Assembly: GCF_014191775.1 (NCBI RefSeq)
Contig: NZ_JACHXA010000007.1
Location: forward strand, 62,001-126,000
Length of the DNA: 64,000 nt
From: Limibacillus halophilus
Lineage (GTDB): Bacteria > Pseudomonadota > Alphaproteobacteria > Kiloniellales > CECT-8803
Direction of reading: 5' to 3'
The notes under the pieces: model-generated
Seen by the model: only the letters and a program-made list of their open reading frames with translations
Databases searched by the model: none
Told to the model about the DNA's origin: nothing
Shown here: positions 40,611-57,162 of the stretch, in pieces
Numbering within the stretch: position 1 is the stretch's first letter
Layout of the letters: each line of letters starts with the position of its first letter
Program-made: the position numbers and the translations under genes

Positions 40611-40838
40611 GACTTCCCCCAATAACCCGAGTTTTGGAACATTCGGTATTCTTATATATATCCTATAATGAATATGTCGTAATTCAATAAAAATGATCGT
40701 ATATTCAATGTATATTTAGAGATAATAAGAATAAATAAAGAACAAATCATATATATCCCATAAAAATCTAGTAGATATAATGATTTATTCATAATTAATG
40801 TGTAAATTGTCTCGTAACCATTTGTCTACTGGAAACAA
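40611..40838. other. AT-rich intergenic DNA
   Basis: About 230 bases of markedly AT-rich sequence (runs such as ATATATATCC and AATAAATAAAG) upstream of the minus-strand beta-helix gene. It contrasts sharply with the GC-rich genes around it. No open frame; likely promoter and possibly acquired DNA. Confidence 0.6.
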
Positions 40839-41009
40839 ATGGCCCGCGACATGCCCCGATTGATGTTCCAGGCGCTGTTTGGCGTGGTTGGAGAGTGCGG
40901 CCAAACCGGGGAAATCGATGCCGATCTCCTTCTGGCTTACTTGTCGCGGGCGAAAGGAAAGGGGTTAGGCAGAAAAAAGGCCGGACCCGTTACCGAGCCC
41001 GGCCGTTAG
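40839..41009 (+). CDS. Possible small ORF (56 codons)
   Basis: ATG at 40839 opens a GC-rich frame reading MARDMPRLMFQALFGVVGEC and then GQTGEIDADLLLAYLS, ending in a basic tail before TAG. Codon use looks like a real gene and the base composition jumps at its start. However it has no ribosome site, and its 3' end lies under the terminator of the convergent beta-helix gene. It is bordered by a 10-base inverted repeat (GCCCGCGACA at about 40842 and TGTCGCGGGC at about 40942). It may be a remnant of a longer gene. Confidence 0.3.
   Translation: MARDMPRLMFQALFGVVGECGQTGEIDADLLLAYLSRAKGKGLGRKKAGPVTEPGR
40973..41004 (-). terminator. Intrinsic terminator of the second beta-helix gene
   Basis: Imperfect stem GGCCGG...CCGGCC with one mismatch and, on the minus strand, a TTTTTT run after it; 28 bases beyond the stop at 41032. 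Confidence 0.8.
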
Positions 41010-41031
41010 ATCTAGATTCCATAAAGTTGGA

Positions 41032-42510
41032 CTAGGGGAAATTCACCTGGTCGCGGCAGATGCTGAACCCTGGTCCCTCTCGGGTTGTATTGTTGCAACC
41101 AAGCATCCCGCCGGTGAAGGTTGCGCCGCTCCGTGCACGAACAAAGGCGAGCTGCCCTAAGGAGACGTCGCCCGTGACCGAGACTGTGTCCCTGAACTCA
41201 AAGAGCGACTGGTGAAATACCTGCGCTGCAGCATCCTGTGTTCCGCCATTGACGGTTGAGTCGCCTCGGACCTCGACATAACCCTGGCGGTAGATATCGA
41301 TCGCGACAGGGCAATCGCCGGAGCCGCTGAAATCACAGGTGTCGTTGGCGGCGGTAAAGGTGTCGCCGCCGTCCGAACGGAAAAAGCTTTGACCGCCGAT
41401 TTCAATGGCAGCGTAGCCATTTCCGGTTGCTGTGTTGTTTGTACTGCGCACCGAACTGTGATGAGCGACCTGGAAGCCTGCATCGAAGTTGGACTCGACG
41501 CCGTTGTTGTTGAGGGTTGAACCGGTCACATAAGCAAAGGAATCGCGGAATACGCCGATGCCATCGTTCCCGTTGTTGTTCATGGTTGAGTTCTGGACAA
41601 TGACCTTGGAGGCGTTCGCAACTTCGACACCTGCGCCATAGCTACCGGTGCCGTTGTTGGTAAAGATGCTGTCCTCCACGCCGACTGTGGAGGCGAGGTT
41701 CACCAGCAGGCCGGAACCGACGTTGTTATTGGAATCGACGCCTGTGACGCTGCCATCAGAATTGCCGTGGAACCAGATTCCGGGACCCGAGCTACCGGTA
41801 ACGGTCAAATACTCAATCTCCACGTCGCCGAAGTCTACCAAGATTGAACCAGTCAAGGTGTGGTCGCCGCCTTGAGTCTGGGTATTGGACTCGTCGCCTG
41901 AAATGACGAGGCCATCCACGTCCTCAATAACCACATCCTCGGCACAATCGGACAAGAGCAGGATACGGTCATCAAAACCCGCCGCATTGACGGCGTCTTG
42001 AATGGATGTGAAGTCGCCTGTTGCGCCGACGCAGTCCACGGTGTGGGTGACGCCTCCGCCGCCGCCGCCGCCACCTGCGTTGATAGCGTCGATGACTTCT
42101 TGGTTCAGGTCCTCCAACAGGATCGCGCCGTTGGTGATCTTGGCGCTGTTGACGACACCGTCGGCAATCTTGTTGCCGGTTACCGAACTGTTGGCCAGCG
42201 TCGTGGTGTTGATTGAGCCGGGGATGAGTTTGGCCGGGCTGATGGTGCTGTTGGCGATCTTAGCGCCGGTCACCGCGCCGCCGGAAATCTTGTTCCCCGT
42301 GATCGACAGGTTGGCGATGGTGTTGGTATTGATCGAGCCGGGAATCAGATCAAGCGGGCTGATGGTGCCGTCCTCGATATCCGAGGATTGCACGCAACCG
42401 GTGCACTGCACGTCCGTCGCCAACTGGGCTTGAGCAGCCTGTGGTGTAGCAATTGCAAGTCCAATTGCCGCCAGCAACAAGGCCAGATTGTTAGAGCTTC
42501 TCTTCCTCAT
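41032..42510 (-). CDS. Secreted parallel beta-helix protein, paralogue
   Basis: 492 residues with a Sec signal (cleavage near AQAQL). Same layout as 39144-40610: CTGCVQSSDIEDG, two 40-residue repeats, a GGGGGGG linker, a Cys-linked THTVDCVGATGDFTSIQDAV and a right-handed beta-helix. The N-terminal coding stretch (42161-42420) differs from the paralogue by about ten bases in 260 with a run of 104 identical bases, while the helix part is much more divergent. Start at 42510 behind GAGAGGG is preferred to the far-upstream frame start. Function unknown; probably surface-exposed. Confidence 0.77.
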   Translation of the reverse strand: MRKRSSNNLALLLAAIGLAIATPQAAQAQLATDVQCTGCVQSSDIEDGTISPLDLIPGSINTNTIANLSITGNKISGGAVTGAKIANSTISPAKLIPGSINTTTLANSSVTGNKIADGVVNSAKITNGAILLEDLNQEVIDAINAGGGGGGGGVTHTVDCVGATGDFTSIQDAVNAAGFDDRILLLSDCAEDVVIEDVDGLVISGDESNTQTQGGDHTLTGSILVDFGDVEIEYLTVTGSSGPGIWFHGNSDGSVTGVDSNNNVGSGLLVNLASTVGVEDSIFTNNGTGSYGAGVEVANASKVIVQNSTMNNNGNDGIGVFRDSFAYVTGSTLNNNGVESNFDAGFQVAHHSSVRSTNNTATGNGYAAIEIGGQSFFRSDGGDTFTAANDTCDFSGSGDCPVAIDIYRQGYVEVRGDSTVNGGTQDAAAQVFHQSLFEFRDTVSVTGDVSLGQLAFVRARSGATFTGGMLGCNNTTREGPGFSICRDQVNFP

Positions 42511-42758
42511 GTCTACCCTCTCAGTGGTTTTTCTTTGCCCAAATTTTGTAGATAAAACCAGAATAACTTGAGGATTTATGTTTTCAACCAGCAAATAATT
42601 TAAATGCAAATTTTGGAATTACACGCACGAGCGGTGAAATTGAACAACGCTCTGGTTTTATATACTGCACTTTAATTGAATATTGATGTAGTAATCGATA
42701 CAGAATGCCTAATCCTGTGACATCATTCTCATACGAGTCGGCGCAGCGAATCGCTCCA

Positions 42759-43661
42759 CTAATCCTTGAGTTTCAGGTTCCCTTCACCGATCACCACGGC
42801 ACTGCCCCCGAGCGTTACACGAGCTAGCTTATTACTTGCGATCCTAAGGTCGAGGTCCAGGCGACTGGGGCGTCCCATGGCCTCGCCTTGCCGAATGACG
42901 ACTGCGTGGTCACCATCACGGAGGCTGAGAACGGTCGCATATTCGCCCGCAAAAGCAGCCGCTGCGCCGCCGGTGGCTGCGTCCTCGGCAATACCCATCG
43001 CCGGCGCAAACATGCGGGCCTGTACTTCTTCGGGTTGCCGGGGGTCGAGAAGATAGGGATAGAGGTGCGGGGCGGGGCTCTGGGACACCGAGGTCTTCCA
43101 TAGGCCTAGGTCAACCAGGATCGAAGCCAGGGCGTCCTCGCTTGTGAGCGGGATAAAGACAAACGGCACCCCTGCCGACCAAGCTGTCGGCCCCCATTTT
43201 GCGATAGCGGAGACTGGGAGGCCCAAAAGCTTTGCTGCTAAAGCGGCGTCGCATTTCACCGGGAGCCGCTCGGGCAACTTGGGCGCCGTAAAGCGCGCGC
43301 GCCCCGTATCGCTACCCAAACGTTCTGCTTGCGCAGCTATCGGACCAATGGGTGGTACCAGAGTAAAGGTCATCGCTGGCCCCGGTTCATTCGCTGCCAA
43401 GGCAAGAGTTACGGCGGTACCTACTGTTGGGTGACCAGCGAAAGGAAGTTCTATCTGTGGCGTCATGATGCGAAGATCGAAGGTTGTGTCGGAATCACGG
43501 CGAGGGAACACAAACACTGTCTCCGAGAGATTGAATTCAGCGGCGATGCTTTGCATTGTCGCGTCGCTCAGTCCATGGGCGTCGGTGACCACGGCCAAGG
43601 GGTTGCCGGCGAAGGGCTTGTCCGTGAAAACGTCCAGGAGGCGGTAGGGATAGAGCTTCAT
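42759..43661 (-). CDS. PhzF-family isomerase/epimerase
   Basis: 300-residue protein of the PhzF family. Markers: [16 protein letters not shown] near the N terminus, [10 protein letters not shown] (containing the catalytic Glu of the family), [11 protein letters not shown] and the C-terminal [17 protein letters not shown]. PhzF enzymes act as isomerases or epimerases on small acids; the substrate is not known here. The start overlaps the stop of the dioxygenase gene by 4 bases, so the two form a coupled pair. Confidence 0.87.
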
Positions 43662-44713
43662 TGCGGCTGGAAATCCTTGTTTTGGTGCTCAGGGCTTACT
43701 GTCGTCCCGTGTTCGAGATGATCTGCGCCAAGCGTCGGAAACACCTTGGCGACCTTGCTTAAGAGGTAATCGCCATAGCGGCCAGAGAAAATATGAGGAT
43801 CTTCGCCGTCCCAACGCGGTGCATCGATGTGATCTCTCGCTAACCGCGGAAGGGGGACAATTTCCGCGGCGAAATCTGGATCAAGAAACAATGGAAAAGA
43901 CAAACGATCGTGACCGCTCCGGTTCATGACCCGGTGCAGGGTCGAGCGGTAGGTACCGCCGGTCAAGCGCTCCAGCATGTCGCCGATGTTACAAACCAAC
44001 GCCCCTTCTATCGGCGGTGCTTGAATCCAACCATTGGGGGTCTTGACCTCCAGACCGCCGTAGCGATCCTGTGCCAGCAAGGTCAACAGGCCATAATCGC
44101 AATGTGCGCCGGCACCCCAGGATTCCCGCCAGGATTCGGGCATTTCTGCCGGGTAATGGAATACCCGGAACAAGACTGTAGGGTTGGCTGTGTAGGTGTT
44201 CAGGAAGTAGTACCGGTCCAACCCCAGGCTAAGAGAAATGCCCTCCAACAACGCTTGTCCCGCTCGCGTGGTGGCCGTCATGTAGGTCTCGACGGCATTG
44301 CGTAGGCCGGCTGGTTTGCTCGGCCAAAGGTTGGCGCCATGCAGCGGCCATCCGCCCCGTACCCGCGGATGATCGTTCGGCAGATCGCTGCCGAAATACA
44401 ATCCCTCCTTGTTATCGGGCTTGCCTGAAGTCAGTTCGTTGCCAACAGGAAAGTATCCGCGCCACGCAGCACCGCCCCGCGCCATGGCTACCTGCATTTT
44501 TTCAGTCAGGGGTAGCGCAAAGAAAGCGCGGCTTTCGGCCTCCAAATCGGTGAGGCATTGCGAGGGGATCGCGTGGCCAACAACGTAAAAGAACCCCACC
44601 TTGCGGCAAGCGGTGTCGATTGCACGTGCAACCTGCTGGCGTGCTTTGTCGTCATCGCCAAATAGAGGTGTCATGTCGATTACCGGCAGACTGAGCATCG
44701 GGTCGCGCGTCAT
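43658..44713 (-). CDS. Isopenicillin-N-synthase-like Fe(II)/2OG dioxygenase
   Basis: 351-residue enzyme of the IPNS/DIOX family. N-terminal DIOX_N region ([26 protein letters not shown]), then the iron site [15 protein letters not shown] with HxD, the third ligand in [17 protein letters not shown], and the [10 protein letters not shown] segment that holds the cosubstrate Arg and Ser. It would hydroxylate or oxidise a small molecule. The frame extends to 44836, but GGTGGAG places the start at one of the paired ATGs 44713/44716. Coupled to the PhzF gene. Confidence 0.87.
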
Positions 44714-44879
44714 CATCCTCTCCACCCTGAGCTGACCTGAGCTTACCCCATTTGGTAAACTTGGTGCAGTGCTCTCCAATCTGTGAATGGAACGGATCAG
44801 CGCGGATCGTAACCTATTACGAAGAACTGCATCCAATACTCCAGTGCGCCTACTAAGCCGTAAATTGCAGGGAGCCCAA

Positions 44880-45354: not shown

Positions 45355-46290
45355 CTAAGGACCGGCCCGCACGGCGGAAACGTGGTCCACAAATCCTTCG
45401 CTTCCCATAAGAGATTTGCAGCGTTCGAAGCGTTCCGTCGAATAGGCCCAAAAGTCGTCCACCGGATTTTTATTGGCGTGTTGGATCAGGCCCCACAGGG
45501 TCCACAGTAGATCGCACATAGCCTTGTAAATAACCATCCGACCCTGTTCGCCGGGCGCTGGTTCCCGTCCGAAATAGGCGCAAAGCATTTCGTGGTCCTG
45601 CGCCTCGCTGAAAACGCCTTCGACAGAAAGGTCGCCCAGATCCCATAGCGGATCATTCATGCCGGAATATTCCCAGTCGACCATCCACATACGGCTGCCC
45701 GTATCGAGAAAATTCTCGCAAAGGGGATCGCAATGACAGGGTGCCAGCGGCAGTGGGTGCGCAGCAAGGGCTGCGCGCAGTGTTTCAGCTTCGCCCAGTA
45801 CTTGGTGGTAGCCTTCTGGTAAATCGACCGTTTTGCCAGAAAGAATTTTTAGATAATCGTCGATCATCGCGAATAGCTCGAAACGAAAATCGAACTTGGC
45901 GCCGCTATGGTGCAGCTTACGGAAAGCTTCTCCAGCACGTGCCGCTGCGCCCTTGCGCTGTGCGAAGGCCTTTGGGGTCATCGTGATCGTATCCTCGATG
46001 AATGCAGTGACCATGATGCCGCTATCGGGATCGACAAAGAGCAGTTCCGGACTGACACCGGCCTTCGCCGTTTCCCGTGCGGCCTTCGCTTCGTTCTTCC
46101 GGTCGATGTATTCCTCGGTACCCTTACCGGGGATACGCAGGCACCAAGCGCACTCGCCAGACGAGACCCTGAAGACCAGGTTGGTCAGGCCGCCAAGGCG
46201 CTCCAGTTTCACGTTTGCCGGATCAATCCCGGCAAAAATCGGTAGCTGGTCCAGAACGGCACGAGCCTGATCTAGCGCGTCATCAGTCAT
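45355..46290 (-). CDS. Choline-kinase-like phosphotransferase (APH fold)
   Basis: 311-residue kinase-fold protein of the choline/ethanolamine kinase branch. The glycine loop is near LGGLTNLVFRV (residues 32-42), the catalytic loop is HCDPLCENFL (His186, Asp188, Asn193), and the metal-binding segment is VDWEYSGMNDPLWDLGD (Asp205). It would transfer the ATP gamma-phosphate to a hydroxyl of a small amine-alcohol; the substrate is unknown. Start at 46290 follows GGAGGA. Last gene of the betaine-type operon, 11 bases after a dimethylglycine-dehydrogenase-like gene; a second paralogue lies at 51184-52068. Confidence 0.8.
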   Translation of the reverse strand: MTDDALDQARAVLDQLPIFAGIDPANVKLERLGGLTNLVFRVSSGECAWCLRIPGKGTEEYIDRKNEAKAARETAKAGVSPELLFVDPDSGIMVTAFIEDTITMTPKAFAQRKGAAARAGEAFRKLHHSGAKFDFRFELFAMIDDYLKILSGKTVDLPEGYHQVLGEAETLRAALAAHPLPLAPCHCDPLCENFLDTGSRMWMVDWEYSGMNDPLWDLGDLSVEGVFSEAQDHEMLCAYFGREPAPGEQGRMVIYKAMCDLLWTLWGLIQHANKNPVDDFWAYSTERFERCKSLMGSEGFVDHVSAVRAGP

Positions 46291-46301
46291 GGGGTCCTCC
46301 G

Positions 46302-48722
46302 TCAAGCTTTCAGTCGCTCCATCTTTGGGTCGTAGAGGCAACGTGCGCCGCGCGTGGCGTGCCAGTTCTGTCCAAAGGCCTCGATCTCAAAAGCGGTCTT
46401 TCCGGCGATTTTTGTCGGTAGATAGGCAAAAGCGATGGTCTTGCCGGTCCAGTGACCATAACCGCAAGAGGTCGTCGAACCGACGACTTTGCCATCCAGC
46501 AAGATTGGCTCCCCACCCAAGAGTGGGGCGAAACCATCGATTGCCAGGGACACCAGCTTACGGCTGACGCCTTTTTCATGAATGTGGGTTAACGCTTTGC
46601 GACCAGTGAAGTCGCCCTTTTCCAAGGCGACGCAAAAGCCCAACCCAGCTTCATAGGGGTTGTAGTCCGGGCTGATGTCGCCCGACCAGTAAAGGTAACC
46701 CTTTTCTAAGCGGCAACTTTCAACCGCACGGTAGCCCGCATTGGACATGCCATGAGTTTCACCGGCCTCCCACAGGGCTTCGTAAACGGCGGCGGCAAAC
46801 TCCTGTGGGATATAGAGCTCGTATCCGAGTTCACCGACATAGCCGACACGAACGGCCAGGGCCTGCGCGTTGGCTAATCCAATCTTGCGGATTGCGAGAA
46901 AGGGGAAAGCCTCGTTGGATAGATCATCGTCGCTGACGGTTTGCAGAACTTTGCGCGCGTGCGGCCCGCAAACATTGATGGTGGCGTATGCGCCTGTGAT
47001 CTCAACCATCGACACGCCTGCGCCGGGCAATTGTCGTTCGATCCAGTCGCTATCGCGAACGCCAAAGCCTGACCCGGTGACAAGCCAGAAGTGATCATCG
47101 TCCAAATGCAACAGCGTTACATCGGCCTCGATCCCGCCCCGGTCGTTGCAGAGTTGAGTGTAGATTGCTTTTCCCTTGGGCCCCGAGAGATCGTTGGCGG
47201 CGATCCTTTGCAAGGCTGCAAACGTTCCCGGCCCTCGCAATTCGAACTTTGAGAAGGAGCTTTGGTCGATTAGGGCCACGCGCTCTCGAATGGCGCGCAC
47301 CTCTTCTCCCACACCGTCGAACCAACTTGGTTTGCCTTCGAAGCTCGGCACGTCTTCCAGTGGGTCGCCGTCGCGACGGAACCAATTCGGCCGCTCCCAA
47401 CCAAACTTGGAGCCGAAGACCGCGCCGCGCGCCTTTAGCGGTTCGTAGAGGGCTGAGCGGCGCAGACCGCGTCCGGCGAGCGATTCCTCTGCGGGCCAGT
47501 GGATCTTATAGTACGCGGCATAGGCCTCGACGGCGCGCTGTTCCAAGTAGCGAGCCTGCGCGTGTACCGGGCCGAAACGCCGAACGTCCAAAGACCAGAG
47601 GTCCATACCCGGGTCGCCTTCGAGGATCCAGTTCGACATGGCCTGACCGGCCCCTCCCGAAGCGGCAATCCCGGCCGTGAAACCGCAGGCGACGAAGAAA
47701 TTATCCAGACCGGGCGCCAGGCCCATCATTGGCTCGCCATCGGCGGAGACCGGGATCGGGCCGTTAATGATCGTCTGAATGCCGATCTCATTCAAAACCG
47801 GCAGGCGTTCCGCAGCGGGTAACGCGAAACGCTCCAGGCGATCCAGGTTGCCTTCAAAAAGCTCGCGGCCGAAATCCAGTGGCGGCTTGCCGCGCCAGCA
47901 CCCGCGCGTGCCTTCCTCCCAACCGCCGATGGCGAAGGACCCGGTATCGGGTTTCAGATAAAAGTTCTTGTCCGGGTCGCGCAGGGTCGTCAGGTCTTTC
48001 GGTAAGTCCAGTGTTTTTTCCGTAAGGAAGTATTGATGCTCGACAACTCCTGCGGCCAGCGCTACCCCGGCCATCTCACCAACGCGCTTGGCCCAAAGGC
48101 CGGCACAGTTGACTAGAATATCGCAGCCAATAGTTCCGTGATCGGTGACCACGCCCAGGATGCGGCGGCCACGGCGGACAATCTCAACGACACTGGTGTG
48201 CTCTTCGATCTTTGCGCCGTATTTGCGCGCGGCCTTAGCGAAAGCCTGGGTCAGAGCATAGGGGTCGATGTAACCATCGCCGGGAATGAAGGCAGCACCC
48301 TCGATTCCCTCTGTCGTGATGTAGGGGAAAAGCTTGGCGGCTTCCTCGGCAGAGAGCGCGTGGCACTCCACGTCGAAACTGCGAGCCTGGCCCATCGAGC
48401 GGCGGATTTCACTCCAGCGATCCGGGGAGGAAGCAAGGCGTAGGGAGCCGACTTTCTTCCAGTCGATCGCCGCATCGGCTTCTTCGGCGAGGCGATCGAA
48501 AACCGCGACCGAGTTCTGCATCAGGCGCGTCAGGTTTCGTTTGCTGCGCAGTTGCCCGACCAGTCCGGCTGCGTGCCAGGTACAGCCCTCGGTGATCTGA
48601 GCCTTTTCAAGCAACAGAACATCTTTTTCGCCGGCTCTGGCCAGATGGTAAGCAACGGAGGTGCCAATGGCCCCGCCGCCGATGACGATGATGCGTGCGT
48701 GACGGTCAGCGGAAAAGGTCAT
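46302..48722 (-). CDS. Sarcosine/dimethylglycine-dehydrogenase-like flavoprotein with GcvT domain
   Basis: 806-residue oxidative N-demethylase. Residues 10-400 form the FAD (DAO) domain: IIVIGGGAIGTSVAYHL, then CTWHAAGLVGQL with His50 at the position of covalent FAD attachment in this family. Residues about 440-800 form the folate-binding GcvT-like and barrel domains (LIDQSSFSKFELRGPG, YVGELGYELYIP, YRAVESCRLEKGYLYW). It should remove an N-methyl group from a secondary or tertiary amine and pass the one-carbon unit to tetrahydrofolate. Cotranscribed with a very similar paralogue just upstream; the physiological substrate is not certain. Confidence 0.87.
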   Translation of the reverse strand: MTFSADRHARIIVIGGGAIGTSVAYHLARAGEKDVLLLEKAQITEGCTWHAAGLVGQLRSKRNLTRLMQNSVAVFDRLAEEADAAIDWKKVGSLRLASSPDRWSEIRRSMGQARSFDVECHALSAEEAAKLFPYITTEGIEGAAFIPGDGYIDPYALTQAFAKAARKYGAKIEEHTSVVEIVRRGRRILGVVTDHGTIGCDILVNCAGLWAKRVGEMAGVALAAGVVEHQYFLTEKTLDLPKDLTTLRDPDKNFYLKPDTGSFAIGGWEEGTRGCWRGKPPLDFGRELFEGNLDRLERFALPAAERLPVLNEIGIQTIINGPIPVSADGEPMMGLAPGLDNFFVACGFTAGIAASGGAGQAMSNWILEGDPGMDLWSLDVRRFGPVHAQARYLEQRAVEAYAAYYKIHWPAEESLAGRGLRRSALYEPLKARGAVFGSKFGWERPNWFRRDGDPLEDVPSFEGKPSWFDGVGEEVRAIRERVALIDQSSFSKFELRGPGTFAALQRIAANDLSGPKGKAIYTQLCNDRGGIEADVTLLHLDDDHFWLVTGSGFGVRDSDWIERQLPGAGVSMVEITGAYATINVCGPHARKVLQTVSDDDLSNEAFPFLAIRKIGLANAQALAVRVGYVGELGYELYIPQEFAAAVYEALWEAGETHGMSNAGYRAVESCRLEKGYLYWSGDISPDYNPYEAGLGFCVALEKGDFTGRKALTHIHEKGVSRKLVSLAIDGFAPLLGGEPILLDGKVVGSTTSCGYGHWTGKTIAFAYLPTKIAGKTAFEIEAFGQNWHATRGARCLYDPKMERLKA

Positions 48723-48734
48723 TGCAGACCTCCC

Positions 48735-51176
48735 TTACACCTTGATGCGGGCGTTGGCAGCGTCATAGAGCGCTTCCAAGTGCAGCGTTGCCGGGACGCG
48801 TTCGGTCGCCACCACCAGTTCGTATTTACCGCTGCTCAGGTAATCGTCGTTGACGCCATCGGCGTGGCGGACATATCCGAAACCGATCGACTTGCCGACG
48901 CTATAACCGAAGCCGGCACTGGTCAGGTATCCTGCAAATTCGCCGTTGCGGAGGATCGTCTCCCGGCCCAGCAAAACGACGCCTGGGTCCTCAACCGTGA
49001 AGCAGGCCAGCTTCTTTTTGAGGGGTGAGTTGGCGGTACGCTCTGCGGCAGCACGGCCGATGAAGTTCATGTCTCTCTTCAGCTTAACGGCCCAACCAAG
49101 TCCAGCCTCGAATGGAGAATCGTTCGGCGTGATGTCAGAGCCCCAGGCGCGGTAGCCCTTTTCCAGCCGCAAGGATTCGATGGCCCGATATCCACAGGGT
49201 CGAATCCCGTGGGCTGCGCCTGCCGTCATCAAGGCATCGAAGATGTCCCCGGTCGCCGAGAGTGGCGTGTGCAATTCCCAACCCAATTCTCCGACGTAGG
49301 TGATGCGCAGCGCGCGCACTGGATGCCCCGCAATCTCGACTTCTTGAACATGGCCGAAGGGGAAGGCTTCGTTCGTGCAGTCGGCTGTGGTGACAGCCTG
49401 CAACACGTCGCGTGCTTTGGGGCCCATCAGGGAAAGCGTTCCGAAATCCTCGGTGACGTCGGTCAGAGTCGCTTCGCTACCATCGGGCAGGTGGTCACGG
49501 ATCCAGGTGCCGTCATGTGTTCGGAAGCCCGTGCCGGTCACGATGTAGAAGTGATCGTCGGCCAATCGCGCCACCGTCAGGTCGCATTCGATGCCGCCGC
49601 GGCTGTTAAGAAGCTGCGTGTAGGTCAGCCGGCCCGCAGGCTTGGAGACATGGTTTGCGCAGATAGCATCCATCGCCGCCGCAGCGCCGGACCCACGCAG
49701 TTCAAACTTGGCAAAGGACGATTGGTCGAACAGGCCTACGGCCTCGCGTACGGCGCGATGCTCCTCGCCGACGGCGTCGAACCAATTCTGCCGTCCCATG
49801 CTGTACTGGTCCTGCGGTTCGGTTCCCGGCGGTGCGAACCAATTGGGTCTCTCCCATCCCAGCTTCGAGCCAAAGACCGCCCGGCGTTCCTTCAGGCGTT
49901 CATAGAGCGGCGAAACGATGCGGGGGCGGCCTGTTTCATACTCCTCGTGCGGGAATCCGATGGTGTAGTGCTTGCCGTATGCCTCGAGCGTGCGGTCGCA
50001 GACCCACTGACGATCCCGGTGAAGTTCCGAAAAGCGCCGGATGTCCACCGTCCAGAGGTCGAGCGGGGCCTCCCCGCTCATCACCCATTCCGCGAGCACC
50101 CAACCCGCGCCGCCGCCCGAGGCGATGCCGAAGGCATTAAAACCGGCGCCGACATACATGTTTTCGCATTCGGGAGCCCTCCCGAGGATGAAGTTGCCAT
50201 CAGGCGTGAAGCTTTCCGGCCCGTTGATCATCTGCTTGACCCCGGTGTTTTCCAAGGCGGGTACGCGGGCGATGGCCTGATGCAGATGTTGTTCGAAGTG
50301 GTCCCAATCGTCATCGAATAGCTGAAACTCGAAGCTGTCAGGCACGTCGCCGGTCGTCCAGGCCTGCGGGTTAGGTTCGTAACCACCCATGACGAGGCCG
50401 CCGACTTCTTCCTTGAAGTAAGTGCGGCGGTCCGGGTCACGCACGGTCGCGGTGTCGCTGGCCAGCCCCGCGATGGGCTCGGTAACGATGTACTGATGCT
50501 TGACTGGTTGCAGCGGCACATTGATGCCAGCCAGTTCGCCCAGTTGCCGAGCCCACTGTCCGGCGCAGTTGACGACAGTCTCGCAGGCAATCGTTCCTTG
50601 CGCGGTTTCAACAGCAGTGATGCGCTCGCCGTCCATCCGGAATCCGGTAACACGCTCGCCTTCGACGATCCGGACGCCGTGCATCCGCGCGCCCTTCGCC
50701 AGTGACTGCGTAATGTCGGTCGGGTTGGCCTGACCGTCCGTTGGCAAGAAGGTGGCGCCAACAAGATCGCTCACATCCATCAGCGGCCACATGGCCTTGA
50801 CCTCGCTGGGGCTCAACAAATGCATGTCCATGTTGAAACTGCGGGCTGTCGTCGCCAAGCGCTTGAATTCGATCCAGCGGTCTTCGTTGCAGGCAAGCCG
50901 CAAGCAACCGCTCATCTTCCAACCCGTCTCCAGCCCGGTCTCAGCGTCCAGTTTCTTGTAGAGATCGACCGAGTATCGTAGCACCTGGGTGATGCTGGCA
51001 GACGAGCGCAACTGGCCGACCAGCCCGGCAGCATGCCATGTCGAACCAGAGGTCAACTTGCCTTGTTCCAGCAGCAGCACCTCGGCTTTGTGGTCCTTGG
51101 CCAGATGATAGGCGGTGGAACAGCCGATGATCCCGCCGCCGATGACGATGATCTGGGAATGGGAGGGAAGCGACAT
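48735..51176 (-). CDS. Sarcosine/dimethylglycine-dehydrogenase-like flavoprotein, paralogue
   Basis: 813 residues, same two-part layout: QIIVIGGGIIGCSTAYHLAK, STWHAAGLVGQL with the FAD-linking His48, and C-terminal folate-binding GcvT-like domain (LFDQSSFAKFELRGSG, YVGELGWELHTP, CGYRAIESLRLEKGYRAWG). It is only about half identical by eye to the 46302-48722 protein, so the pair is old and the two may act on consecutive methyl groups, such as dimethyl then monomethyl species. Follows the second kinase-like gene by 7 bases in the operon. Confidence 0.87.
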   Translation of the reverse strand: MSLPSHSQIIVIGGGIIGCSTAYHLAKDHKAEVLLLEQGKLTSGSTWHAAGLVGQLRSSASITQVLRYSVDLYKKLDAETGLETGWKMSGCLRLACNEDRWIEFKRLATTARSFNMDMHLLSPSEVKAMWPLMDVSDLVGATFLPTDGQANPTDITQSLAKGARMHGVRIVEGERVTGFRMDGERITAVETAQGTIACETVVNCAGQWARQLGELAGINVPLQPVKHQYIVTEPIAGLASDTATVRDPDRRTYFKEEVGGLVMGGYEPNPQAWTTGDVPDSFEFQLFDDDWDHFEQHLHQAIARVPALENTGVKQMINGPESFTPDGNFILGRAPECENMYVGAGFNAFGIASGGGAGWVLAEWVMSGEAPLDLWTVDIRRFSELHRDRQWVCDRTLEAYGKHYTIGFPHEEYETGRPRIVSPLYERLKERRAVFGSKLGWERPNWFAPPGTEPQDQYSMGRQNWFDAVGEEHRAVREAVGLFDQSSFAKFELRGSGAAAAMDAICANHVSKPAGRLTYTQLLNSRGGIECDLTVARLADDHFYIVTGTGFRTHDGTWIRDHLPDGSEATLTDVTEDFGTLSLMGPKARDVLQAVTTADCTNEAFPFGHVQEVEIAGHPVRALRITYVGELGWELHTPLSATGDIFDALMTAGAAHGIRPCGYRAIESLRLEKGYRAWGSDITPNDSPFEAGLGWAVKLKRDMNFIGRAAAERTANSPLKKKLACFTVEDPGVVLLGRETILRNGEFAGYLTSAGFGYSVGKSIGFGYVRHADGVNDDYLSSGKYELVVATERVPATLHLEALYDAANARIKV

Positions 51177-51183
51177 GGGGGTA

Positions 51184-52068
51184 TCAGGCCTTTCCGTAAC
51201 GTGACCGGTAGCGCGCCAGTTCAGCGGCGAGGCGGTCCAGGTTTTCTTGTGTGTAAGCTTCGTAGTCGACGCCGGGTGCTGAGAGGTGGAGTTCGGAAAC
51301 CAAGCTCCAGAGTGTCTCGCGCAGCAAGGATGCGCATTTCATGGCGGCTTGACTCCGCAGCAGGGCGGGCGACGGTTTCTCATTGAAGTAACGGGCCAGA
51401 AGCGCTTCGTCCTGCTCGGGCGAGAAACCGGCATTCGAGGCGATACCCGCCAGATCGAACATTGCGGTGGAGAAACCGGCGTACTCGAAATCGATCAGCC
51501 AAATCCGCTCGTCGTCCTCGATGAAATTGGCGGGCAGCAGATCATTGTGACCGAAGATGATCGGCAGCGGCACCTGCACGGCCTCCAACTCCTCGGATAA
51601 ATCCAGAAACTCCGGCAACTTTGCCGCCATTCGGCTACCGCCGGCCTCCAATGTGCGGGCATAATCTCGGATTACATGGAATACCCAGAACAGAAAAGCG
51701 GCGCCGCTAACATGACGCGGCATCGCTTGGTGAAACCCTCGGATCAGATCGGCGATCGGCTCCAGATTGGTCTGAACTTCATCAGCTCCATAGGTTTGAC
51801 CCTCGATAAAGACCGTAACCATCAGACCAGGCGCGGCATAGGTCACCTCCGGTGCGAAGCCCGCCCGGACAGCGGCCCGGGTGGTCATTAGTTCCCGGTC
51901 ACGAAAGACGTGATGAAAAGGGAAATCACGGCCCAGGCGGACAACCTGTTTCCGGCCCGCGTCGATCACGGTATAGCTTTCGTTGCTCAGGCCGCCTTTC
52001 AACAACACCGGGTCAACCGATCCAGCCCAGATTGGCAAGCCCTTGATGCGCGTGATGCTGTCGCTCAT
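51184..52068 (-). CDS. Choline-kinase-like phosphotransferase (APH fold), paralogue
   Basis: 294-residue kinase-fold protein. Glycine loop LKGGLSNESYTV (residues 23-34), catalytic loop HNDLLPAN (174-181; the His-x-Asp and Asn are intact), and metal site LIDFEYAGF (Asp193). The HNDLLPANF form is close to choline/ethanolamine kinases. Overlaps the stop of the fused permease gene by 4 bases, so its expression is tied to the transporter; it may phosphorylate the imported compound and trap it in the cell. Confidence 0.82.
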   Translation of the reverse strand: MSDSITRIKGLPIWAGSVDPVLLKGGLSNESYTVIDAGRKQVVRLGRDFPFHHVFRDRELMTTRAAVRAGFAPEVTYAAPGLMVTVFIEGQTYGADEVQTNLEPIADLIRGFHQAMPRHVSGAAFLFWVFHVIRDYARTLEAGGSRMAAKLPEFLDLSEELEAVQVPLPIIFGHNDLLPANFIEDDERIWLIDFEYAGFSTAMFDLAGIASNAGFSPEQDEALLARYFNEKPSPALLRSQAAMKCASLLRETLWSLVSELHLSAPGVDYEAYTQENLDRLAAELARYRSRYGKA

Positions 52069-54083
52069 GTCTCGTCTCCCGCGCCCGGCGAGAGGCCAAG
52101 TCGGGCCCGGGTCTTGGCCGCGCCTGCCGAGATCAGGCGGTCAGCGATGATGGCTATGAAAGCCACAGCCAATCCTGAAACCAAACCCCTGCCGGTATCG
52201 GCCTTGGTAAGAGCGATGTAGACCTCCTGACCGAGGTCGCGCGTGCCCACCAGGGCCGTGATGACCAGCATGGAAAGAGCCAGCATGATGGTTTGATTGA
52301 GGCCCAACATGATCGCCGGCAAGGCAAGCTTCAGCTTGATCTTGAGAAGCAGTTGGATAGGCGTGCAACCGGCGACCGTTCCGGCCTCCACCAACTGCGG
52401 GTCGATACGCTGGAGGCCGTGGGCGGTGTAGCGTATGGCAGGGGAAATCGCATAGGCAATGACCGCCAGCATGGCCGTGAAGTCACCGACCCGAAACAAC
52501 ATCACCGCAGGCATGAGATAAACGAAGGAAGGCAGCGTCTGGAGCGTGTCGATAATCACCCGAACGAACCGCCAAACGCGCTCGCGCTCGGCCGATAGGA
52601 TGCCGATCGGAATGCCGATCAGCCCCGCGAGAACGACCGAGATGCCGCAGAGGTAGACCGTGATCATGGCCTTTTCCCATTGCCCGGTCGCGGCAATCAG
52701 GAAGGCTAGTGCAGCGACGGTCGCGGCCAAACGCCAGCGGCCGAGGCTCCAACCCGCCAGCGCCAGGAGTGCTGCGACGCCAAGCCAAGGGAGGTCGAGA
52801 AGGAAGCGTTTGAAGGGAATCAGAAGGTTCAGTAGCAGGGCATTCTTCAACCCTTCGAGCTGATCGAAGAAATTGATATTGATCCAGCGCAGGATGTCGC
52901 CCCAGAAGGTGCCGGTCGAGATTTCAGCCGCCGACGGATAGCTCTGGAAAGCAACGCTGCCGAGGCCCAGCACAAAAGTGACGGCAATGAGCGCGACCGC
53001 GGAAAGACTGTAAGGGTAGCGTCGCCAGACGGATAATTGCTGATCGTCATCGCCGCTATGTTGACGACTTCGTGCCGCATAGGCTTGCGAGAGGCGATCC
53101 AGCGCTATGGCCAGGGCGACAATGGCAAACCCAGCCTCGAAGCCGGTACCGATGTCCAGCCGCCGCAAGGCTGCAAGCACCTCGTATCCTAACCCCCCGG
53201 CGCCGATCATGGAGGCAATGATCACCATGTTCAAAGACAGCATGATCACCTGATTGACGCCGACCATGAGCCCTGGTCTTGCCGAGGGAACCAGCACGCG
53301 CCAAGTCATTTGCCGTCGGGTGCAACCGATCATCCGGCCCAAGTCCTTAATCTCGGGCGGTACGCTGCGCAGCGAGACAATGCTGATGCGTGTCATGGGT
53401 GGCAGGGCATAGATGATGGTGGCGACGATGGCTGCCGTCGGACTAAAGCCGAAGAGGAAAAGGATCGGCACAAGGTAGGCAAAAACCGGGATCGTCTGCA
53501 TCAGATCCAGGATGGGCGTAATGGCTCGCTCAAACCCGCGGGAGCGATAGCCGAGAATACCCAGTAACAGGCCACCGACGATGCCGATCGGGACGGCGAT
53601 CAAGATCGAGGCCAGCGTTACCATGGCGCTGTCCCACTGACCAAAGAGTGCAATGAAGCCGAAACAGCCCGCGACCAGCAACGCCAAGCGAACGCCCCCG
53701 GCGTAAAGCCCCATCATCGCGATGATGCCGATGATCGCGACCCAAGACAGGGGAGGCACAACCTGTACGGCGTCGGACCCCTGGCCTTCGAGGAAGCCGG
53801 TGGAAAGCAAGCTGAGCGCCACGCGATATGGGAAGTCGATGACATCTGCGATGAAGCGCGTCATTTCCGTAAAGGAAAAGAGGCCAAAACCGGCGTCATC
53901 CAACAGCCAGTTCATGAAATCCCGAATCCAGTAGCGCAGTGGAATTTCATAGGCGCCGGGATACTCGAAAGCCCACGCGAACAGGGTTTCGCCAAACTGC
54001 CAGAGGAGCACGAATAGTGTCAGCGCGACGAGCCAAACGAGGTTTCGTCCCTTGAAGCTGCGCCTTGCACTGCTGCTGTCCAT
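52065..54083 (-). CDS. proW: Glycine-betaine/proline-type ABC permease, two ProW domains fused
   Basis: 672-residue membrane protein containing two complete permease domains. The first has the coupling region YALPPMTRISIVSLRSVPPE then IGCTRRQMTWRVLVPSA and SLNMVIIASMIGAGGLGYEV; the second repeats this as YAISPAIRYTAHGLQRIDPQ then VAGCTPIQLLLKIKLKLALP and LSMLVITALVGTRDLGQEVY. About six helices per half plus extra N-terminal helices in each. One polypeptide would thus provide both halves of the channel normally formed by a ProW homodimer. One base separates it from the ATPase gene, and it overlaps the kinase-like gene. Confidence 0.88.
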   Translation of the reverse strand: MDSSSARRSFKGRNLVWLVALTLFVLLWQFGETLFAWAFEYPGAYEIPLRYWIRDFMNWLLDDAGFGLFSFTEMTRFIADVIDFPYRVALSLLSTGFLEGQGSDAVQVVPPLSWVAIIGIIAMMGLYAGGVRLALLVAGCFGFIALFGQWDSAMVTLASILIAVPIGIVGGLLLGILGYRSRGFERAITPILDLMQTIPVFAYLVPILFLFGFSPTAAIVATIIYALPPMTRISIVSLRSVPPEIKDLGRMIGCTRRQMTWRVLVPSARPGLMVGVNQVIMLSLNMVIIASMIGAGGLGYEVLAALRRLDIGTGFEAGFAIVALAIALDRLSQAYAARSRQHSGDDDQQLSVWRRYPYSLSAVALIAVTFVLGLGSVAFQSYPSAAEISTGTFWGDILRWININFFDQLEGLKNALLLNLLIPFKRFLLDLPWLGVAALLALAGWSLGRWRLAATVAALAFLIAATGQWEKAMITVYLCGISVVLAGLIGIPIGILSAERERVWRFVRVIIDTLQTLPSFVYLMPAVMLFRVGDFTAMLAVIAYAISPAIRYTAHGLQRIDPQLVEAGTVAGCTPIQLLLKIKLKLALPAIMLGLNQTIMLALSMLVITALVGTRDLGQEVYIALTKADTGRGLVSGLAVAFIAIIADRLISAGAAKTRARLGLSPGAGDET

Positions 54084-54084
54084 C

Positions 54085-55122
54085 TCAGCCTCGCATCATG
54101 ACCGCGACCACATCGTCGCGCAGCAGAAGGCCCTGAGGTTGGCCGGCGTCATCAACCACTCTTAGCGTACTGATGCCTTGTTCCAGGAGCGGGGCGATTT
54201 CGGCGATGGTAGCCTTGAGAGAAACCTCTGGCCCGAGCGCGTCGGCAGGCAACTGGTCGTTGAGCGGCCGCATCAAGGAGGCCGCGCGCATCACCTTCGC
54301 TTTGGCGACGCTGCGCGTGAACTCGGCCACGTAGTCGGTTGCGGGGTTCAACACCAGATCTTCGGGTGATCCAATCTGGACGACCGCGCCGTCTTTCATG
54401 ATCGCGATGCGGTCGGCCAGACGGATGGCTTCGTCAAAATCGTGTGTTATGAAGACGATGGTCTTCTGCAAGACGGACTGCAGGCGCAAAAACTCGTCCT
54501 GCATTTCCCGTCGGATCAAGGGATCGAGGGCGGAGAAGGGCTCGTCCAGGAACCAGAGTTCCGGTTCGACGGCCAGGGAGCGGGCGATACCGACCCTTTG
54601 CTGCTGACCGCCCGACAGTTCGCGTGGATAGAAGCCCTCACGGCCCGCCAAACCGACCAAATCGACCATTTTGGCGGCGCGTTCTTCGCGGCTGCGCCGG
54701 TTCAATCCCTGAACCTCAAGTGGGAAGGCAACGTTTTCCAGCACCGTCATATGCGGGAGCAGGGCGAAGTGCTGAAACACCATCCCCATGTGATGGCGCC
54801 TGATTTGGACCATGCGCTCCGCGCTGGCTTCCAACAGATTTTCACCATTGAAGAGAATTTCACCTGAGGTTGGCTCGATCAAGCGAGACATGCAGCGCAC
54901 CAGCGTCGACTTGCCAGAGCCCGATAGACCCATAATGACAAAGCTCTCGCCTTCGCGAACCTCCAGGTTTACGTCGCGGACAGCGCCGATGAGGCCGGCC
55001 TCTTGTAGAGTTTCTTCAGTGATGGGATGGGCAGTATCGCGCGCGGCCATGAAACTCTCCGCGTGCGGGCCGAATATTTTCCAGACGGACCGGCAGACGA
55101 GCTTCGCTTCTGATTCGGACAT
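54085..55122 (-). CDS. proV: Glycine-betaine/proline-type ABC ATPase with CBS domain
   Basis: 345-residue OpuAA/ProV-type ATPase. Walker A GLSGSGKST, Q-loop VFQHFALLPHMTVLENVAFP, signature LSGGQQQRVGIARSL, Walker B LWFLDEPFSALD, switch FITHDFDEAIRLADRIAIM. The C-terminal 80 residues are CBS-like (LKATIAEIAPLLEQGISTLRVV, GLLLRDDVVAVM), the module that senses ionic strength in OpuA. Preceded by a 105-base gap containing a hairpin. Together with the fused permease and the binding protein it forms one importer. Confidence 0.9.
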   Translation of the reverse strand: MSESEAKLVCRSVWKIFGPHAESFMAARDTAHPITEETLQEAGLIGAVRDVNLEVREGESFVIMGLSGSGKSTLVRCMSRLIEPTSGEILFNGENLLEASAERMVQIRRHHMGMVFQHFALLPHMTVLENVAFPLEVQGLNRRSREERAAKMVDLVGLAGREGFYPRELSGGQQQRVGIARSLAVEPELWFLDEPFSALDPLIRREMQDEFLRLQSVLQKTIVFITHDFDEAIRLADRIAIMKDGAVVQIGSPEDLVLNPATDYVAEFTRSVAKAKVMRAASLMRPLNDQLPADALGPEVSLKATIAEIAPLLEQGISTLRVVDDAGQPQGLLLRDDVVAVMMRG

Positions 55123-55177
55123 GGCCTACCTGTCGGCTCCCAGGCTTGAGTGCGGTGAGTGCGGCTCGATTGGCGCG

Positions 55178-55211
55178 GGCCGCCGGCGAACCTTGAGGCT
55201 CGTCGGCGGCC
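55178..55211. terminator. Hairpin between binding-protein and ATPase genes
   Basis: Perfect 8-base inverted repeat GGCCGCCG (55178-55185) and CGGCGGCC (55204-55211) in the 105-base gap after the binding-protein gene. No U-tract, so more an mRNA-processing or attenuation structure than a terminator. Confidence 0.45.
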
Positions 55212-55227
55212 AACACAGCCTTGCGGC

Positions 55228-56199
55228 TTACTTGATCCAGGTGGACCAGCGCGCCTCGTTGTTTGCCATCCAGTCGGCGACCACTTCGTCGATCGACTTC
55301 CCTTCGAGATCGACGGCGGTGATCATCGCACCCATCTCGCCGTTGTTGATGTTGAAGGCTTTGACGGCGTTGCTGGCGCCCGGCCACTTATCTTTGAGCC
55401 CGGCCCAAGAGACCTTCCAGATCGGTCCGCGCGGTTTACCGCAGTCGTAGGTTTCGTTGGGATTGCTGCCCCAGGACGGATCTTCGTAGCACTCTTTCGT
55501 ATAGGCCGGAAATTCGACCCATTCGCCCTCGTACTTCGCAGGTGCCCAGTGCGGCGCATAAACCCAAAGCATGACCGGCGCTTTGCGTTGGTACGCACTT
55601 TCCAACTCTGCAAACAGCGCGGCATCGGTGCCGGCGTGCACGACCTCGAATGGCAGGTCGAGAGCTTCGGCGCGCTCATCGTCGAAGCCGCCCCAGGTAA
55701 CGGGGCCTCCCAGATAGCGCCCCTTAGGAGCGGTTTCGGCGGTCGCAAAGGCTTCGGCGCAGGACGCTTCTTTCAAGGCTTCCCAGTTCGGCAATCCCGG
55801 GCACTTTTCTTTCATGTAGGTCGGGTACCACCACTCCTCGATCGCCTGCATCCCGGTTTCACCGAGATTCTCGACCTTGCCGGTTGCCGTCGCCTCATCC
55901 ATGGCGTCGCGTCCCGTGGTCTCCCAGATTTCCATCGCAACATGTAAATCGCCGCTCTTCAAACCGGCGAACTGGGCAATGTAGTCCGCTTGCACGTACT
56001 CGATATTGTAGCCGGCCTTCTTGAGAACCTCGCCCATGATCTGGGTGGTGATCAATTGACCTGTCCAGTCGTGTAGCGTCAGCTTGATCGGGTCGCGCGA
56101 TTCGACCTCCGCCTGAACGTTGGCTGCGGCCAGGCTCAGCCCCGCGGTCACAGCAAGGCCGATGAAAGCGCGCCTCAATGTCATATTGACGGTCTTCAT
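55228..56199 (-). CDS. proX: Glycine-betaine/proline-type substrate-binding protein
   Basis: 323-residue periplasmic protein with a Sec signal (cleavage near VQA-EVE). It has the OpuAC/ProX layout: IKLTLHDWTGQLITTQIMG with an early Trp, AMEIWETTGRDAM, EEWWYPTYM, PVTWGGFDDER, LWVYAPHWAPAKY. Several tryptophans and tyrosines (W-box residues) would form the aromatic cage for a quaternary ammonium group. Cysteines in CPGLPNWEALKEASC, KECYEDPS and YDCGKPRG may form disulphides. A GGGAGAC ribosome site precedes ATG 56199. First gene of the betaine-type operon; divergent from the DeoR-type gene. Confidence 0.88.
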   Translation of the reverse strand: MKTVNMTLRRAFIGLAVTAGLSLAAANVQAEVESRDPIKLTLHDWTGQLITTQIMGEVLKKAGYNIEYVQADYIAQFAGLKSGDLHVAMEIWETTGRDAMDEATATGKVENLGETGMQAIEEWWYPTYMKEKCPGLPNWEALKEASCAEAFATAETAPKGRYLGGPVTWGGFDDERAEALDLPFEVVHAGTDAALFAELESAYQRKAPVMLWVYAPHWAPAKYEGEWVEFPAYTKECYEDPSWGSNPNETYDCGKPRGPIWKVSWAGLKDKWPGASNAVKAFNINNGEMGAMITAVDLEGKSIDEVVADWMANNEARWSTWIK

Positions 56200-56349: not shown

Positions 56350-56400
56350 AAAGGTTGCGCAATATCATCTTAGTATTTGGCATTTTTAACCGGTAACCAC

Positions 56401-57162
56401 ATGAATACCACAAAGAGAAGAAACGCGATCCTGGAACGCGTGGTAGAGCAGGGGTCGGCCAGAGTGAGCGATCTCGCCAGCGATCTGGGTGTTTCGCTGG
56501 AAACCATCAGGCGCGATGTGCGGCCGCTGGTGGAGCGTGGCGAACTTGTGAAAACCCATGGTGCGGTCTTCGCGGTCGATGCCTCTCGGGAAGCGCCATT
56601 TGAGCGCCGTTTGCGTGAACACGCGGAAGGCAAACGCCGGATCGCCCGCCATGTCGCTGGCCTGATTGAAGACGGCGACAGCGTCATGATGGATACCGGA
56701 ACCACGACCAGTATTCTGGCGCGTGAGTTGCTGGCGAAGAAGCGTTTGATCATCGTCACCAATTCTTCTGACGTCGCGCGCATCCTGGCGACGGTCAATG
56801 GCAACAAGGTCTACATGGCGGGCGGCGAGTTGCATGGCGACAACGGTGCGGCGTTTGGGCGTTCCGCCATCGATTTCATAAGCAATTTCAAGGTCCGTTT
56901 CGCCATCATCTCGATCGGCGCCATCGATGCCCGCGTTGGGCCGATGGATTTCAGATTGGCGGAGGCCGAGTTCGCCCGCCGGGTTCTAGAGTGCGGCGAC
57001 GAGCGCCTCGTGATCACGGATCACTCGAAGTTTCAGCGCTCGGCGCTGGTCAAGGTTTGTGATTTCGAAGAGTTTGATCACCTGGTAACCGATGTGCCGC
57101 CGCCCGAGGATATTGCCAAGCGCCTGACCGCGGCCGGGACCAAGGTCACAGTGGTTCCCTAA
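56401..57162 (+). CDS. DeoR-family transcriptional regulator
   Basis: 253-residue regulator. N-terminal helix-turn-helix of DeoR type (RNAILERVVEQGSARVSDLA, LGVSLETIRRDV, then ELVKTHGAV); C-terminal sugar-phosphate-binding-like DeoR domain (DSVMMDTGTTTSILA, LIIVTNSSDVARIL, ERLVITDHSKF). The ATG at 56401 is preferred over 56377. These regulators respond to phosphorylated metabolites, which fits an operon that contains two kinases. Divergent from ProX, so it probably represses the operon until the phosphorylated compound accumulates. Confidence 0.87.
   Translation: MNTTKRRNAILERVVEQGSARVSDLASDLGVSLETIRRDVRPLVERGELVKTHGAVFAVDASREAPFERRLREHAEGKRRIARHVAGLIEDGDSVMMDTGTTTSILARELLAKKRLIIVTNSSDVARILATVNGNKVYMAGGELHGDNGAAFGRSAIDFISNFKVRFAIISIGAIDARVGPMDFRLAEAEFARRVLECGDERLVITDHSKFQRSALVKVCDFEEFDHLVTDVPPPEDIAKRLTAAGTKVTVVP

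Follow-up and report, generated by a model that had tools for sequence, protein, structure and literature searches.

The 64,000-nucleotide stretch of Limibacillus halophilus DNA analysed here (hereafter the window) carries on its minus strand seven consecutive genes, which encode a substrate-binding protein (SBP), an ATPase (ATP), a double-length permease (PERM), a kinase (K1), two flavoproteins fused to a GcvT domain (D1 and D2) and a second kinase (K2), and which are faced by a divergent regulator gene of the DeoR family (Table 1). These families, as well as the facing regulator, had been proposed in an earlier note made from the sequence alone, and Pfam and NCBIfam scans of the seven proteins bear them out. 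The close packing described there, with 1-12 bases between genes past the first, also holds: by the coordinates of the open reading frames (ORFs), SBP and ATP lie 105 bases apart, ATP and PERM 1 base, PERM and K1 overlap by 4, and the K1-D1 and D1-D2 gaps measure 7 and 12 bases. For K2 the likeliest start codon is the ATG at 46290, which has a GGAGG right upstream, rather than the TTG at 46341 given in the ORF list, so that the gap between D2 and K2 is 11 bases. The intergenic stretch between SBP and the regulator gene contains only three weak inverted repeats, and we assign no DeoR operator there.

Table 1. The seven genes of the operon and the regulator gene that faces them, with positions in the window.
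Gene	Product	Positions	Strand	Basis and remarks
DeoR	DeoR/GlpR-family regulator, divergent from the operon	56377-57162	plus	family match; start more likely at the ATG at 56401
SBP	OpuAC-type periplasmic binding protein	55228-56199	minus	family match; nearest solved relative TmoX (4xz6)
ATP	ProV/ChoV-type ATPase	54085-55122	minus	TIGR01186, 342.6 bits (cut-off 326.6)
PERM	Double-length permease	52065-54083	minus	two BPD_transp_1 stretches in one protein
K1	Choline_kinase/APH protein paired with D1	51184-52068	minus	Pfam; conserved residues
D1	FAD demethylase with a fused GcvT (folate) domain	48735-51176	minus	DAO + FAO_M + GCV_T + GCV_T_C
D2	Second FAD demethylase-GcvT protein, different tree branch	46302-48722	minus	DAO + FAO_M + GCV_T + GCV_T_C
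K2	Second Choline_kinase/APH protein paired with D2	45355-46290	minus	Pfam; relative of 3dxq; revised start

Both kinases belong to the choline/ethanolamine kinase family by Pfam match and conserved catalytic residues. Their scores for Choline_kinase are 72.5 (K2) and 58 bits (K1) at a cut-off of 29, both also exceed the cut-off for APH, and the K1 residues H174, D176, N181, D193 and Y196 are invariant across 24 aligned rows. Each matches structures of the choline kinase family, K1 more distantly (E 4e-26) and K2 as a close relative of 3dxq (E 4e-136), an entry for which the search result carries the family name only. The two flavoproteins have the domain architecture of folate-linked dehydrogenases of the dimethylglycine dehydrogenase (DMGDH)/SARDH type and match mammalian DMGDH across almost their full length (best E 3e-163 for D1 and 2e-168 for D2). 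They are likewise homologous, through the flavin adenine dinucleotide (FAD), linker and folate domains, to DMGDH (5l46, 4p9s) and dimethylglycine oxidase (1pj5), and they share with DMGDH the motif TWHAAG, in DMGDH the site of flavin attachment. Unlike those enzymes, D1 and D2 go together with kinase genes and stand in amino-alcohol contexts. In the records seen, relatives of K1, K2, D1 and D2 are named only generally, for example as 'phosphotransferase' or 'FAD-dependent oxidoreductase'.

The remaining three genes make up an ABC importer of the ProU/ChoXWV type, with an OpuAC binding protein, a ProV-type ATPase and a BPD_transp_1 permease. Scored against the ChoXWV models of NCBIfam, the permease reaches 403.7 for a cut-off of 363, though it is of double length and matches in two stretches, while the ATPase reaches 308.6 for 483.75 and the binding protein 32 for 379.05. 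SBP aligns with the trimethylamine N-oxide (TMAO)-binding protein TmoX (4xz6) at E 4e-68, and we mapped its pocket by counting along this alignment, with conservation taken over 19 aligned rows. Among the seven TmoX pocket residues named in the available passages of the source (W55, W102, F106, E131, W177, F220 and W222; PMC8918994), four are identical in SBP, where W45, W92, E121 and W169 (for W55, W102, E131 and W177) are invariant in all 19 rows. Two more are swapped for other aromatics, F220 for W212 and W222 for Y214, both retained in at least 90% of the rows, and F106 is replaced by glycine. Such an aromatic cage with a glutamate would seem better suited to a hydroxyl-bearing methylated ammonium than to a carboxylate ligand.

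The operon is not confined to Limibacillus. K1-like genes occur in 31 of the 38 genomes searched (counting the window's own, weak and K2-type matches), 29 of them with a strong K1 match (E 3e-77 or better) and the other two with a K2-type or weak match only. The full order, DeoR followed by SBP, ATP, PERM, K1, D1, D2 and K2, is annotated on the Rhizobium rosettiformans plasmid NZ_CP032406.1 and found in several others of 38 stretches read around the kinases, which excludes that it exists in this genome only. The earlier suggestion that all seven genes form a single unit must be given up, as the pairs occur apart in relatives: elsewhere among the 38 stretches, K1-D1 is accompanied by the importer and a DeoR gene, while K2-D2 lies at a separate site beside a different DeoR gene, and a Ruegeria plasmid carries D2-K2 with its own DeoR gene and without an importer. 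What is conserved is thus two separable kinase-demethylase pairs, of which K1-D1 was found in Hyphomicrobiales, Rhodospirillales and Rhodobacterales. A relative of the DeoR gene is present in 92 of 124 loci examined.

Within the pairs the adjacency is close to constant. K1 is followed directly by D1 in 115 of the 125 K1 loci that lie away from contig edges, and the order D2-K2 is kept in 26 of 28. The corresponding figure for D1 with K1 upstream (111/113) is biased, because the set of 144 loci behind it was mostly recruited via K1. That set omits L104 and L112, which lie on the same contigs as L023 and L024, and counts both of the overlapping Salipiger loci L064 and L173; one of the searches kept the best 80 of 562 rows, many of them from Mesorhizobium. 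A less biased figure comes from a class-wide sample of 241 genomes, in which the best four D1 candidates per genome were scored: among the matches listed, 17 of 19 D1-type matches (≥56% identity) adjoin an independently found K1, and 18 of the 27 genomes with a strong K1-type match have it next to a match of the D1 search. In genome G172, K1 follows the importer and a D1-type gene lies on another contig, without K1 and with IMPase-family genes on both sides (L159 and L160:7493-11614, respectively). At L162:9846-11445 and L169:8595-10499, kinase genes of the K1-like and K2-like kinds each have a HAD-family hydrolase gene, and no demethylase, as a neighbour; L169 also carries the importer. The surroundings of K2 are more varied; its neighbour is D2 in 27 of 70 K2 loci, an S-adenosylmethionine-dependent methyltransferase in 38 and neither in 5, and none has both. 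This methyltransferase (L093:13329-14069 and 26 further loci, cluster c6) is a small class I protein of the Methyltransf_11 family, drawn as divergent from K2 in the locus layouts, to which the window's genome holds only a partial match of 39%.

The two demethylases are not sister branches. In a tree of 96 rows (a quick method, rooted at the midpoint, whose only support values are from the SH-like approximate likelihood ratio test (SH-aLRT); some branches are long and named D1 rows were thinned to every sixth), 45 D1 rows fall into one branch (support 99) and D2 into a separate one (28 D2 rows and one truncated D2, support 100), while D1 groups with 18 paralogues unlinked to these kinases (support 97) and the D1-type row from L160 lies outside the D1 branch. 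As D1 is thus closer to kinase-unlinked paralogues than to D2, the link to a kinase either arose on two occasions or disappeared along the way. D2 was seen in 19 of the 38 genomes, counting that of the window. Every one of them has K1 or D1 as well, with two cut by contig ends; D2 was not seen in 11 genomes with a strong K1, a count made without an independent search for D2, without reading G014 for it and with several assemblies fragmented. The resulting nesting of D2 within genomes that bear K1/D1 fits D2 feeding D1, but is suggestive only.

Genes beside the pairs point to the class of substrate. EutH directly follows D1 in 6 of 113 D1 loci, with the family confirmed at one of them and annotated at another. 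The richest context is that of the Salipiger abyssi plasmid NZ_CP015091.1 (gene names here and for Shinella and Ruegeria are as annotated in the records), where an IMPase and a DeoR gene lie on one strand and the importer, K1 and D1 run onward on the other, followed by genes for electron-transfer flavoprotein (ETF) beta and alpha, the latter recorded as 'FAD-binding protein', FolD, PurU, an N-formylglutamate amidohydrolase, a glutamine synthetase (GS)-like protein, an aldehyde dehydrogenase, an iron alcohol dehydrogenase, GlyA, L-serine ammonia-lyase and a HAD hydrolase. Judged from annotations rather than from sequences, the stretch from amidohydrolase to alcohol dehydrogenase matches the four gene types of the gamma-glutamyl ethanolamine pathway of Phaeobacter MED193, whose operon encodes a gamma-glutamylglycine amidohydrolase, an ethanolamine gamma-glutamylase and two dehydrogenases and, as the available passages have it, a TRAP importer but neither a kinase nor a demethylase (PMC10132767). 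About 3 kb further along, the Salipiger plasmid has another importer, then an 'aminomethyltransferase family' protein and a response regulator, and after these a DeoR gene facing D2-K2; the aminomethyltransferase-family protein that follows this second importer (L173:28649-31001) is a possible third demethylase between the two pairs.

Parts of this context recur. Immediately upstream, Shinella records carry genes for RpiR, a GS-like protein, N-formylglutamate amidohydrolase and isochorismatase. In six loci, all from one genus, D1 is followed by an iron alcohol dehydrogenase that shares 56-57% identity with that of Salipiger. Phosphatase-family genes accompany the module in four distinct places, with an IMPase beside the module or D1 in Salipiger, Ruegeria and two further genomes; in Ruegeria and at L049 it is D1 that the IMPase-family gene follows. 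In a pair of genomes of about 1.4 Mb (G061 and G250), ETF genes accompany K1-D1: at L153, D1 is followed, past a short reverse-strand ORF, by ETF beta, ETF alpha and ETF-QO, and at L154, in the second genome, relatives of both ETF subunits lie downstream with an ORF of the same length in third place. That genomes so small have kept these genes hints at an abundant natural substrate.

The window's own genome holds relatives of the ethanolamine genes as well, away from the operon. Its contig 2 carries adjacent relatives of the Salipiger GS-like (52% identical) and iron alcohol dehydrogenase (59%) genes, and about 75 kb away on the operon's contig lie a GS-like gene 68% identical to that of Shinella and an amidohydrolase-like gene 39% identical to that of Salipiger, beside RpiR-type and isochorismatase-type genes that we name from their place and look. 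The genome also has six genes of the MttB family, one adjoining a DMGDH paralogue, so that ordinary betaine use is probably served elsewhere in it. We set choline aside as a direct substrate of D1 and D2, being a quaternary amine of the kind that DMGDH-type enzymes are not known to attack; with six MttB-family genes at hand, an earlier quaternary step elsewhere is possible.

The operon is real, widespread and conserved, and a specific functional reading of it is plausible: we propose, with a probability of about 0.6, that it is a catabolic module for N-methylated ethanolamines, which are imported, phosphorylated, oxidatively demethylated as phosphate esters, dephosphorylated and burned via glycine. 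The substrates are most likely N,N-dimethylethanolamine and N-methylethanolamine, and possibly choline once it has lost one methyl elsewhere. In such a pathway the ABC importer would take up the methylated ethanolamine, a kinase would phosphorylate its hydroxyl, and the partner flavoprotein would oxidise an N-methyl group of the phosphate ester, its GcvT domain handing the carbon to tetrahydrofolate (THF) as methylene-THF and the electrons passing to ETF. Repeated demethylation would yield phosphoethanolamine, from which the phosphate could be removed by an IMPase- or HAD-type phosphatase encoded outside this operon or by a kinase acting as a phosphotransferase. The freed ethanolamine would enter the gamma-glutamyl route, reportedly also represented by GlnA4 in Streptomyces, and end as glycine. 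In Salipiger, FolD and PurU would oxidise the THF-borne carbon, and GlyA with serine ammonia-lyase could turn glycine and methylene-THF into pyruvate. We infer that the phosphate serves as an anionic handle, the role played by the carboxylate in dimethylglycine and sarcosine, and that it is transient, because kinase and phosphatase-family genes flank the demethylase and an ethanolamine-starting pathway, mostly in the Salipiger record. Since D2 is nested among K1/D1 genomes, K1-D1 may carry out the common, last demethylation and K2-D2 an accessory, earlier one.

Several observations weigh against this proposal. Being nearest to a TMAO binder, SBP may have other methylated amines as its ligands. 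In the 241-genome sample, 9 of the 27 strong K1-type kinases adjoin no D1-search match among the matches listed, and in the eight of these regions that were read no D gene adjoins K1, although in G252 two D paralogues lie 1.8 kb from K1 on the other strand and G172 has its D1-type gene on another contig. K2 adjoins a methyltransferase rather than D2 in 38 of 70 loci, for which the pathway offers no explanation. EutH has no match in the window's genome, so an EutH-dependent use of ethanolamine does not apply there; the full ethanolamine gene context stands in one record only, that of Salipiger; and IMPase relatives occur in only 5 of 144 loci (one counted twice) and not in the window's operon. 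The residues that D1 and D2 share but that other paralogues seldom have did not point to a new phosphate site, and we claim none; several of them, such as R93, also occur in outgroup rows.

The sequence of import, phosphorylation and N-demethylation of a phosphorylated amino alcohol, as the earlier note had it, nevertheless fits better than a betaine pathway, considering EutH, the Salipiger genes, the phosphatase genes and the glutamate cage. Ordinary catabolism of glycine betaine, dimethylglycine or sarcosine, with the kinases unrelated to it, would account for the DMGDH-like architecture of D1 and D2 and for a ProU-like importer, but we consider it the least probable explanation, given the pairing of kinase and demethylase genes, the ethanolamine context, a pocket glutamate that would disfavour a carboxylate ligand, and the other D paralogues of the genome, of which the one beside an MttB-family gene would suit betaine use. 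A different hydroxyl-bearing methylated amine, such as a methylated amino sugar alcohol, serinol or a carnitine-like alcohol, is also unlikely to be the substrate: relatives of SBP bind varied methylated amines and DeoR regulators are common in sugar operons, but EutH and the neighbours of the ethanolamine route speak for another class, as do two kinases that exceed the Choline_kinase cut-off and match structures of that family.

The order of steps could also be reversed, with the flavoproteins acting on free N-methylethanolamines and the kinases phosphorylating the product or serving lipid or regulatory needs, for example by making the DeoR effector. Known enzymes of the DMGDH family do act on unphosphorylated amines, and regulators of the DeoR family often sense phosphorylated metabolites; yet the demethylases of two distinct branches have a kinase gene next to them almost without exception, and the ethanolamine-starting gene types of Salipiger run with a kinase and with phosphatase-family genes at both ends, which a transient phosphate fits better, so that we regard this order as improbable. 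Of greater weight, though still unlikely, is a parallel use in which each of the two pairs phosphorylates and demethylates a methylated amino alcohol of its own, independently of the other, and both compounds enter through one importer. This is a form of the proposed pathway, and the odds of the two overlap. It agrees with pairs that are separable, that may each have their own DeoR gene and, for K2-D2, sometimes their own importer, and with demethylases that are not sisters in the tree, but the presence of K1/D1 in every one of the 19 D2 genomes, beside 11 strong-K1 genomes in which D2 was not seen (again without an independent search for it), fits rather a D2 that feeds D1.

Two genes just beyond K2, for a PhzF-family isomerase and a 2OG-Fe(II) dioxygenase (42759-44836, minus strand, overlapping by 4 bases), are excluded from the module because the 38 stretches from relatives hold no match to either above 60 bits. 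Further along the same strand (39144-42609) lie two adjacent, similar, secreted-looking proteins of 492 and 525 amino acids with long common stretches, for example GTISPLDLIPGSINT.

The nearest published precedent for phosphorylation ahead of demethylation is the anaerobic, cobalamin-dependent MthK/MthB pathway for choline. As described in the available passages, the choline kinase of the Eubacterium limosum system MthK-MthB-MthC-MthA makes the phosphate ester that the demethylase needs, the methyl carbon ends on THF, and the kinase and demethylase genes are adjacent, as in K1-D1 and K2-D2; the kinase also transfers phosphate from the product to the substrate, and the phosphate is suggested by the authors to render the substrate acidic (PMC12155760). 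The methyl transfer there, again according to these passages, is anaerobic and corrinoid-dependent, proceeding from a quaternary amine through a protein of the MttB superfamily (PMC12155760), whereas the operon described here has FAD-GcvT proteins, arranged with the kinases in two pairs, and is joined by genes for an ABC importer and a DeoR regulator. Since D1 and D2 are DAO/GCV_T flavoproteins and not members of the MttB superfamily, the operon does not belong to the Mth type and shares only its logic. If K1 and K2, too, move phosphate from product to substrate, each demethylase would want a kinase of its own, which would explain the doubling. A literature search, with most subscription journals outside its reach, listed no paper whose title concerns an oxidative pathway for methylated ethanolamines in bacteria, and none with a title or abstract describing this operon.

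More broadly, and with slightly less than even odds, we suggest that an aerobic, oxidative pathway of phosphorylation followed by demethylation is present across Alphaproteobacteria. Its kinase-flavoprotein pairs, which may have formed on two occasions, would let DMGDH-type enzymes handle amino alcohols through a transient phosphate ester, and each kinase may also hand the phosphate on from product to next substrate, at little cost in ATP. Methylated ethanolamines are related to the head groups of lipids. If the proposal is true, it would provide a function for two kinase families, one of them with a solved structure (3dxq), and for two branches of demethylases, and phosphorylation before demethylation would be used in oxidative, folate-linked chemistry besides the anaerobic, cobalamin-dependent kind already published.

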